This document shows positions 42,546 through 52,665 of a stretch of DNA of 62,007 nt, in pieces. The stretch's first letter is position 1; each line of letters begins with the position of its first letter. The DNA lies in NCBI GenBank assembly GCA_945862385.1, contig CAMAXV010000017.1, forward strand, positions 1 through 62,007, in the 5' to 3' direction. The notes beneath the pieces are model-generated. The model was not told where the DNA came from and searched no databases. It was given only the letters and a program-made list of their open reading frames with translations. The translations under genes and the position numbers were made by a program. The DNA comes from Chitinophaga pinensis (lineage in GTDB: Bacteria; Bacteroidota; Bacteroidia; Chitinophagales; Chitinophagaceae).

Positions 42546-43676
42546 GTCTTTCACCCGAAACGCCAGCAGTATAATAAAACATCCCAGCACGGCTATAATC
42601 CATAAAGACAACCTTAACCCTGTTTCCTCAGCCACAAAACCAATCATTGGCGGACCTAGCAAAAAACCTGTGAACCCCACACTGCTCACAGCAGCCAGAG
42701 ATGCTGAGGGTGACATGGACTTACTTTTCGCAGCAAGCATATATACAATGGGAAAGACGGAGGAAACACCCAATCCAACAAGTGCAAATCCGCTTATCAC
42801 AACCCATTTCACCGGGAAAACCAACGCCAGAAATATTCCTGATAAAATTAGTAACCCGTTTATCCTAAGCAATTGGGCATGGGTCAGAAGCTGCAATAAC
42901 CTGTCGCCTGCAAACCTGCCCATGGTCATACACAGTGCAAAAGCAGTATATCCCGCCGTACTTGATGTGTGCATGGCATGAATAACCTGTCTGTAATAAA
43001 GTGAACTCCAGTCTGCCATTGCTCCTTCAGACATAGCCACACAAAAACAGATTAAGCCTAGCAGGAGCAATCCTCAGCCAGGCAATACAAATACTTGCTG
43101 CTTTTCTCCGGTTGCGGCGGGATCCGGAACCAAAAAAAAATAAAAAAGTAGGGCTGATACACCGGCAACAGCACCTATCCATGCAAAATGTCCACCGACC
43201 TCAATATCAAAATGCATCATCCACCCGCTTACCGCCGCTGCAGCGAAAGCACCAAGCCCCCACATGGCATGCAGACTGGATAGAATGGTCTTCCCGATAA
43301 GCTGCTGAATGGCAATCCCCTGGGCATTCATGGCGATATTGCCCAGGTTTCCTAACATACCAAAAAGAAAAAGTGATACAGAAAGCGCCTCAAGGTTGCC
43401 CGAGATTCCTGTTATGAACAAAAATAATCCATATAGAACAATAACAACAGCACTTACCTGCCTACTACCCCACCGCTGTACCAACCACCCAGACGCAGGC
43501 AAGGCTGCAAGGGCACCAAGCGGCAACATGAACAAAATACCACCGAGTTCTGCTTCACTCAAGCTGAACCTGTCTTTCACATCCGGAATCCTTGAAGCCC
43601 AGGTTGAAAAAACCATACCAAGAAAGAAGAAATACACGGAAATAGCCGGCCGGCGCATGGATTGTTGCTTGAACAC
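42534..43676 (-). pseudogene. MFS transporter (YbjJ-like) interrupted by an in-frame TGA
   Basis: Two reading frames in the same phase form one MFS protein of about 380 codons. The N-terminal half starts at GTG 43676 or ATG 43658 (MRRPAISVYFFFLG) and has six membrane segments with the MFS loop WLVQRWGSR. It ends at TGA 43076-43074, codon 201 from the GTG, in the central loop (VFVLPG then stop). The very next codons continue the protein (GLLLLGLICFCVAMSEG) through the remaining six helices to 42534. TGA is an ordinary stop elsewhere here (murC, ftsQ). A CGA-to-TGA change is the simplest origin. A sequencing error or readthrough remain possible. Relatives such as YbjJ are putative sugar or drug exporters. 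Confidence 0.82.
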
Positions 43677-50862: not shown

Positions 50863-52665
50863 ATGGATAATTTTGTTGTTTCAGCCAGAAAATACAGACC
50901 TCAGCATTTTTCCACGGTAGTGGGGCAATCCCATATCACCACCACATTGAAAAACGCCATCCAGCAGCATCACCTGGCTCATGCATTCCTGTTTTGCGGC
51001 CCACGGGGTGTAGGCAAAACAACCTGCGCAAGGATTCTTGCGAAAACCATCAACTGCGAAAACCTGGGGCAAGATGGTGAGGCATGCGACAAATGCAGCT
51101 CCTGCCTGTCTTTCAACCATGGTAATTCATTTAATGTGCATGAGCTTGACGCTGCGAGCAATAACTCAGTGGATGATATCAGGGAACTCATTGAACAGGT
51201 CAGGTTTTCACCACAGGCCGGCAGATACAAGGTATATATTATTGATGAGGTGCACATGCTCAGTGCCGCTGCCTTTAATGCTTTTCTTAAAACACTTGAA
51301 GAACCACCGGCACACGCCATCTTTATCCTGGCTACCACTGAAAAGCACAAAATCCTGCCTACCATCCTTTCCAGGTGTCAGATATTTGACTTCAAAAGGA
51401 TCACGCCTACTGATATTGCCGAACACCTGCAGGAAATCACCATCAAGGAAAACATCCAGGCTGAGCCGGAAGGCCTTCAGGTTATCGCACAAAAAAGCGA
51501 TGGCTGCATGCGGGACGCACTGAGTATCCTAGATAAAATTGTGAGTTTTACAAATGGAAAACTCTCTTACACCAATACGCTCGAACACCTCAACCTGCTG
51601 GATGAAGACTATTTTTTCCAACTGCTCGATATGCTCTTCAACGAAGACTTACCGGCAGTCTTGAACCTGTACGATGAAATCGACCAGAAAGGGTTTGAGG
51701 GTGATATGTTTTTAAACAACCTCTCAGAGTTTTTCAGAAACTTACTCGTGAGCAGAGACCCCAGGTCTTTACCACTGCTGCAGGTTGTTGACGGATTCAG
51801 AAACAAATACATTGCAAAAGCTACCGATATCCCTGCCGCTTTCATGATTGGTGCACTTAACGTACTCAATGAAGCTGAAATGGGCTTCAAACAGGCCCGC
51901 AATAAAAAACTGCATGTGGAATTCCACCTGATCAGACTCACACACCTCAAGCAGGCCGTGGAATTTGTTTCTGATGGTGAACCGGGTAAAAAAAAACGAC
52001 TTGAGGGATTAAAACCTGTAGCCTTCAGACCAATCGCAATCCGTTCCAAAGAGAAATCTGAAGCAAAACTGTATATCCAGGAAGAGCCTCAGCAACCGGC
52101 CCCGGCACAAACCATAAAGCCCGCTGAAACAAAGCCTGCAGCTCCATCACAAACAACATTGCCTGCCAGAGCTAAGCAGGAAACACCTCCACAGCCTGCT
52201 ATGCCTGCTGCAGGCGGACTGGGTTCGCTGAAAAAAATCAGGGAGCAAATACAAAACAGAAAAAATGAACAGGAACTTCCTGAGCAATTGTCTGAGGATA
52301 AGCTCGAGATCGTTTGGCTGGAGTTTCAGGAAAAACTCGCAGAAAACAACCAGGTTACGAGTCATTCCAATTTCAGGATGGCCTCAATCAAAATTATAGA
52401 CGACCTGATTTTCGAGATACAGGTTGGATCTAAAATTCAACTTCAGTTCATTGAAGCTGAAAGAACCCTGCTGCTCATGCATGTGCAGGAACGCTTCAAC
52501 AACCCAAGGATACAATTCAGGGTAAACCTTGAAGAGGAAACGGAATCAGCCACAGCAAAACCTGAATTAACCCTGTCTCTCAGAGATCAGTACCTGAAAA
52601 TGGTCTCCCTCTATCCAATTATAGGTACAATGCGGGACCAGCTAAACCTTGACCTCGATTATTGA
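50863..52665 (+). CDS. dnaX: DNA polymerase III subunit gamma/tau
   Basis: Clamp-loader ATPase, 600 residues from the ATG at 50863 (MDNFVVSARKYRPQHF); the frame opens three codons earlier at TTG. Walker A is GPRGVGKT (46-53), zinc ligands C65, C75, C78, C81, Walker B IIDEVHM (126-132), sensor 1 ILATTEKHKILPTI, and an Arg-finger region SRCQIFDF. The collar domain ends near residue 370. Then comes a Pro/Ala-rich linker and a C-terminal tau domain of about 130 residues. At 51988-51996 nine A residues encode Lys376-378 exactly between collar and linker. Both alternative frames stop within five codons, suggesting programmed production of a short gamma form (see findings). Confidence 0.96.
   Translation: MDNFVVSARKYRPQHFSTVVGQSHITTTLKNAIQQHHLAHAFLFCGPRGVGKTTCARILAKTINCENLGQDGEACDKCSSCLSFNHGNSFNVHELDAASNNSVDDIRELIEQVRFSPQAGRYKVYIIDEVHMLSAAAFNAFLKTLEEPPAHAIFILATTEKHKILPTILSRCQIFDFKRITPTDIAEHLQEITIKENIQAEPEGLQVIAQKSDGCMRDALSILDKIVSFTNGKLSYTNTLEHLNLLDEDYFFQLLDMLFNEDLPAVLNLYDEIDQKGFEGDMFLNNLSEFFRNLLVSRDPRSLPLLQVVDGFRNKYIAKATDIPAAFMIGALNVLNEAEMGFKQARNKKLHVEFHLIRLTHLKQAVEFVSDGEPGKKKRLEGLKPVAFRPIAIRSKEKSEAKLYIQEEPQQPAPAQTIKPAETKPAAPSQTTLPARAKQETPPQPAMPAAGGLGSLKKIREQIQNRKNEQELPEQLSEDKLEIVWLEFQEKLAENNQVTSHSNFRMASIKIIDDLIFEIQVGSKIQLQFIEAERTLLLMHVQERFNNPRIQFRVNLEEETESATAKPELTLSLRDQYLKMVSLYPIIGTMRDQLNLDLDY
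51988..52012 (+). promoter_or_regulatory. dnaX: Putative slippage / frameshift site in dnaX (A9)
   Basis: A run of nine A (51988-51996) in phase AAA AAA AAA. After a -1 shift the reading is ACG ACT TGA (stop 52002-52004). After a +1 shift it is GAC TTG AGG GAT TAA (stop 52010-52012). The expected short product has about 380-382 residues, containing the ATPase and collar domains without the tau tail. Thermus thermophilus dnaX is known to use an A9 run for transcriptional slippage. Confidence 0.6.

Follow-up and report, generated by a model that had tools for sequence, protein, structure and literature searches.

A nine-adenine run at the gamma/tau border of a Chitinophaga dnaX gene, a probable programmed slippage site with conserved counterparts across Bacteroidota

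The dnaX gene of Chitinophaga pinensis carries nine consecutive adenines just behind the part that encodes the clamp-loader core, which raises the question of whether this run is a chance feature of the linker or a programmed site from which a shorter, gamma-like subunit is made. In Escherichia coli, dnaX is decoded by programmed -1 ribosomal frameshifting at A_AAA_AAG, with an SD sequence on the 5' side and a stem-loop on the 3' side, and why cells make a short gamma in addition to tau is a matter of long debate, drawn mainly from that species. Here we follow the run from the stretch of 62,007 nucleotides in which it was noticed (the window) through the dnaX genes of the phylum.

The gene lies on the forward strand at 50863..52665 (ATG at 50863, stop codon at 52663-52665) and encodes DNA polymerase III subunit gamma/tau of 600 aa, its full product being tau-like. 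The protein matches the NCBIfam model NF011531 over residues 1-599 with 705.2 bits (cut-off 685), a full-length gamma/tau match. The clamp-loader core of AAA+ ATPase, lid and collar occupies residues 1-364 (50863..51954) and is made up of the Pfam domains DNA_pol3_delta2 (residues 22-180), DNAX_ATPase_lid (185-232) and DNA_pol3_gamma3 (243-364); among PDB entries, gamma/tau chains of E. coli match it at E 1e-70. Its closest named relatives, judged by the four best among the best 80 loci, belong to the Chitinophagaceae and share 72-74% identity. The A9 run follows the last Pfam core match at 51988..51996, in phase 0, as codons 376-378 (Lys-Lys-Lys), and the linker and tau-specific C-terminal part (51997..52662) are read only when the frame is kept. 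Behind the run the -1 frame reads ACG ACT TGA, stopping at 52002..52004, and the +1 frame reads AAC GAC TTG AGG GAT TAA, stopping at 52010..52012, four codons past the hybrid AAC. These positions agree with the original prediction, which had placed three lysines between core and linker, a -1 stop after two codons and a +1 stop after four, and had expected products of about 380 and 600 residues; by script, A10 in the mRNA gives 380 aa, A8 382 aa, A11 383 aa and A12 601 aa.

Very likely, the run programs slippage during transcription. On the nine adenines, RNA polymerase would slip and produce a pool of dnaX mRNAs with varied run lengths, in which messages with nine (or 12) A would encode full-length, tau-like DnaX of about 600 aa. 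A message with one extra A would end at the TGA and one with a single A fewer, or two more, at the TAA, so that the predicted gamma-like product of about 380 aa would comprise the clamp-loader core without the tau tail. That slippage occurs in this gene, its transcriptional nature, the ratio of the two products and the use of a gamma-like subunit are all points that we infer from comparisons at the sequence level.

A single A9 means little in this genome. The pattern has 64 matches in 3.07 Mb (both strands, overlapping matches counted), and in five of the 19 sites inspected among these the run reads as A within an open frame of at least 250 codons; a lone A9 in a gene is therefore not unusual by itself, and we rejected the idea that A9 is a rare feature of the genome. 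The excess over chance is the conservation of the run among relatives. Control regions of the relatives contained few such runs, namely one of A9 or longer in 302,752 bases of dnaX cores, three in 140,821 bases 3' of the run and eight in 255,918 bases of flanking long open frames. The window itself holds a second A9 at 43132-43140 (context AAAAAAAAATAAAAAAG).

Conservation was assessed in 318 dnaX loci, of which 310 yielded usable records, 290 of them distinct. The loci were chosen rather than drawn at random, with about one per genus in the class draw, chosen families in the phylum draw and the best 80 of a scan of named genomes, and the run was scored in a 429-nt linker segment from the core end. 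A run of 9-13 A was present in 237 of the 290 distinct loci, 7-8 A in eight and 3-6 A in 45, a two-humped distribution with a step at nine. The 237 runs comprise A9 (55), A10 (160), A11 (19), A12 (2) and A13 (1), and 229 of them are no more than 100 nt from the core end. By group, runs of nine or more were found in the window genome (1/1), the same genus (30/31), the same family (6/6), the same order (21/22), the same class (101/114), other classes of the phylum (23/40) and named GTDB contigs (55/76); L023, from the window's own genus, has A7 only. The 53 loci without such a run, some of which may end at a contig edge (189 nt are left in L155), include all six loci labelled Bacteroidaceae by NCBI and all five Prevotellaceae, and a FastTree tree of 287 cores requires at least 25 gains or losses of the run. 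AT-richness was rejected as the cause of the run, because 21 of the 32 loci whose core GC is at least 0.55 carry one.

The protein could in principle account for the run if it were only a patch of linker lysines without any decoding role. The Lys-Lys-Lys stretch is widely conserved, and redrawing synonymous codons with the protein fixed still gives 74.2 loci with A9 or more among 220 single-frame loci, a third, so conserved lysines explain part of the run. The observed number, however, is 174 of 220. Mixtures of AAG and AAA in close relatives had been named beforehand as evidence against programming; in 46 loci of the window's family, lysine codons overlapping the run are AAA 130 times and AAG three times, whereas 14 conserved lysine columns in the same genes have AAA 441 times and AAG 164 times. 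Adjoining codons also start or end in A, bringing the run to ten. A lysine patch would leave unexplained the paired stops and split genes described below as well, and we regard it as a most improbable explanation.

The stops behind the run are kept together with it. Among 175 single-frame genes with a run, 145 have a stop in each of the two other frames inside the next 20 nt (taken alone, the +1 frame has one in 146 and the -1 frame in 174); for both frames together, control positions of the same genes give 16.3, 15.5 and 14.5%. In a further 61 genes dnaX is split, as frame 0 terminates within 16 nt past the run and a second frame remains open over 387-713 nt; this is the -1 frame in 55 genes and the +1 frame in six. 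L227, with A13, is one further split gene, cut by the contig end. Homology between the shifted-frame tails and normal tau tails is seen at E < 1e-3 in 59 of 61 genes and at E < 1e-10 in 50, and purifying selection on the shifted tau frame is seen in ten of ten close pairs (pN/pS 0.07-0.51). Judging from these reading frames, the tau part of the 61 split relatives is reachable only through a shift at the run. Together with the AAA bias and the run's occurrence in 237 of 290 loci, these genes and the paired stops support the programmed slippage originally proposed and its expectation that run and flanking stops would be conserved.

Single-frame and split architectures have changed into one another at least 34 times on the tree of 287 cores, on which L227 was counted as single-frame. 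Such frequent flips are to be expected if either frame gives both products. They also mean that run length changes over evolution, and poly-A runs are hypermutable, which fits slippage at the DNA level, by phase variation or as an assembly error, in place of a mixed pool arising from each mRNA or ribosome. We find this hardly credible. A replicase gene should be needed in every cell, so clonal loss of tau is implausible; moreover, both stops stay in place and the pattern recurs across loci from many independent assemblies.

Ribosomes rather than RNA polymerase might do the shifting. A programmed -1 frameshift of the E. coli dnaX kind, at A_AAA_AAA inside the run, would end at the same TGA (52002-52004) and give the same gamma-like product. 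Any A9 contains A_AAA_AAA in frame whatever its phase, 56 of the 237 runs end with an in-frame A_AAA_AAG, of the two stops the one in the -1 frame lies nearer and varies less, and 55 of the 61 split genes need -1. This heptamer, however, needs only seven A, yet 7-8 A occur in just eight of 290 loci, and a -1 ribosomal site needs the -1 stop alone, so that the close +1 stops favour transcription, as do the six split genes that need +1. The runs stand in all three phases (phase 0 in 49 loci, phase 1 in 115, phase 2 in 73). SD-like sequences precede the run in 45 of 237 loci (19%, against 10% in the control; 6.3 against 1.8% for a strict form), an excess that speaks for ribosomal shifting though it concerns a minority of loci. 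Structure on the 3' side is at the control level (mean MFE -9.6 against -9.0 kcal/mol, mean rank 0.48); for want of such structure and of a general SD, E. coli-type stimulators were rejected as a general explanation. At the window run, which is followed by C (AAA AAA AAA CGA), there is no in-frame A_AAA_AAG, none of GGAG, GAGG and AGGA was found in the bases just 5', and the 60 nt on the 3' side fold to -6.5 kcal/mol. A 2025 paper also reports poor frameshifting at the SD-dependent prfB site of Flavobacterium johnsoniae (PMC12421855).

Taken together, the step at nine A, the stops in both frames, splits in both directions, the use of all three phases and the want of general stimulators favour transcriptional slippage, and ribosomal frameshifting appears unlikely. 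According to a 2005 survey, many bacterial genomes show selection against A/T runs, usually at a length of nine (PMC1088944), and a 2013 survey takes shifts in both directions as a mark of transcriptional realignment (PMC3711429). The original prediction had offered Thermus-type slippage and E. coli-type frameshifting side by side; the former is favoured by our comparison and the latter less so.

The kind of system is already known from Thermus and Chlorobi. As far as the available text of the Thermus thermophilus studies goes (PMC1088944, PMC5009743), the dnaX of that species resembles the gene in the window in its sense-strand A9 within a single frame, in stops of both frames close behind, and in a full-length tau with a shorter gamma, which is predicted here. 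It differs in that slippage was measured there and is inferred here, and the position of the window run (63%, directly after the collar) is a further difference. E. coli dnaX is the same gene with the same two kinds of product and an A-rich site, but the window gene has no AAG and has stops in both frames, and its run-bearing relatives have no general SD or stem-loop and need nine A.

Split dnaX genes with a poly-A at the gamma/tau border occur in Chlorobi and other genera (PMC3711429), and our 61 split relatives are built alike, whereas the window gene is single-frame with tau as the default and gamma as the shifted product. The accessible text of that 2013 survey reports 17 split dnaX genes with A7-A10 in 12 genera, nine of them with A10, and names only three Chlorobi species. 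Because the survey took in 22 Bacteroidetes genomes, its 12 genera may well include Bacteroidetes. The remark in the original prediction that such a site had not been described for Bacteroidota thus could not be confirmed, most of these genera being unnamed in the text. In our literature search, dnaX, Bacteroidetes and transcriptional slippage co-occurred in that survey alone, and no paper was returned under the name Bacteroidota. What is new here is the breadth of conservation in Bacteroidota and the frequent flips of architecture.

Loci without a run offer a second view of the border. In one Bacteroidales family, the starting loci L221 (2788-2790) and L233 (4101-4103) lack a run; the border of each is interrupted by a single TAG in frame, behind which frame 0 goes on to encode tau. 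Of 149 genomes drawn from this family, 144 gave a match, and 73 of the matches contain exactly one TAG; among the 73, G703 is of a +1 type (below), and G649, listed without a stop, is of the TAG type. We read 41 distinct TAG loci (L233, L221 and 39 among L369, L379-L416 and L424). The stop is always TAG, followed by AUU in 29 or AUA in 12, then GCA in 37 and AGA or AGG in 40 of the 41, although in the corresponding cores 61% of Ile codons are AUC, 12% of Ala codons are GCA and 6% of Arg codons are AGA or AGG. The full signal consists of UAG-AUW-GCA-AGR, a short stem and RGRCAYR, the last standing in two reading registers. Since rare codons are kept and RGRCAYR is indifferent to register, the signal presumably acts at the nucleotide level. 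The stem is paired in 123 of 124 cells over three subgroups; its covariation is weak, as the observed level of pairing was reached by 133, 164 and 2000 of 2000 shuffles for the three subgroups, and there are only two double changes, in L369 and L413.

UAG is not reassigned in these genomes: tau itself ends in TAG in seven of the 41 loci, and flanking open frames of at least 200 codons (frames rather than proven genes) use TAG too, ending in TAG 26, TAA 25 and TGA 23 times. The tails behind the UAG are homologous to tau in 40 of 41 loci (E < 1e-3) and are under purifying selection (16 pairs, pN/pS 0.16-0.63). The signal pattern matches 82 of the 149 family genomes, in 71 of them inside the dnaX match or immediately at its 3' end, and elsewhere it matches 24 times against 21 for the reversed pattern. 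Order-wide, 19 of 295 genomes have a pattern match (17 for the reversed pattern), and the stem was present only in that of the starting genome. Among the matches listed in a class-wide search of 395 genomes with the UAG-type protein there was no other TAG-type gene, none of the Rfam hits to the element from 10 loci was credible (all below the gathering score and on the other strand), and a literature search on dnaX stop-codon readthrough returned no paper on it among the matches listed.

The likeliest reading of these features is a candidate programmed readthrough, in which termination at UAG would give gamma and readthrough would give tau. Re-initiation at the AUU or AUA could instead yield a separate tail protein; against this, AUG stands at that codon in none of the 41 loci, and its position is taken by UUA or CUA in the +1 loci. 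These +1 loci (L417, L422, L423 and L425) end frame 0 in AGG CYU AGC UAG, with tau in the +1 frame and a stem and CAUA motif like those of the UAG type, and judged by this arrangement their dnaX looks like a case of +1 shifting.

A third type of border has a GGGC-loop-GCCC element within 110 nt of the core end. It was found in 13 of 23 run-less Bacteroidales-like loci (L100, L208, L211, L214, L220, L222, L226, L231, L232, L234, L238, L241 and L246), Bacteroidaceae and Prevotellaceae among them, against none of the 237 run-bearing loci; as background, the cores of the run-less loci hold three copies in 24,501 bases. Although the loop varies in length and thereby moves the codon register, the GCCC arm is conserved.

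These borders together suggest that Bacteroidota probably keep two DnaX products by interchangeable recoding devices at one spot. Slippage on A9-A13, with tau or gamma as the default, would serve most lineages examined. In one Bacteroidales family, a UAG readthrough signal would take its place in roughly half of the drawn genomes and a +1 shift ahead of a comparable signal in a few; a GGGC-loop-GCCC hairpin may be the counterpart in Bacteroidaceae and Prevotellaceae. A border signal kept in most examined lineages and swapped for other decoding signals where it is lost implies that the short form matters, and such convergent replacement, if true, would mean that the gamma-like product is itself under selection. 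UAG readthrough, if true, would be a third route to gamma and tau beside slippage and -1 frameshifting and, once confirmed, a case of conserved stop-codon readthrough in a bacterial replication gene. The set of architectures forms a natural series in which the role of the short form could be tested. It also calls for care in annotation, as a split dnaX with a run resembles a broken gene or gamma alone, with tau encoded in the shifted frame.

Single genomes show further arrangements. L110, which has no run, carries A_AAA_AAG in frame 69 nt past the reference codon, with an SD-like AGGGAGG on the 5' side and a -1 stop; its congener L319 lacks the site in register, and we did not build upon it as an E. 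coli-type site. In L162, from a genome of about 0.5 Mb, the core ends at a stop 15-21 nt past the core end with no tau tail in the stretch examined, and tau may have been lost in this reduced genome. In L247, frame 0 stops at a TAA 72 nt past the core end and tau lies in the +1 frame, with GGGAG just 5' and no A run.
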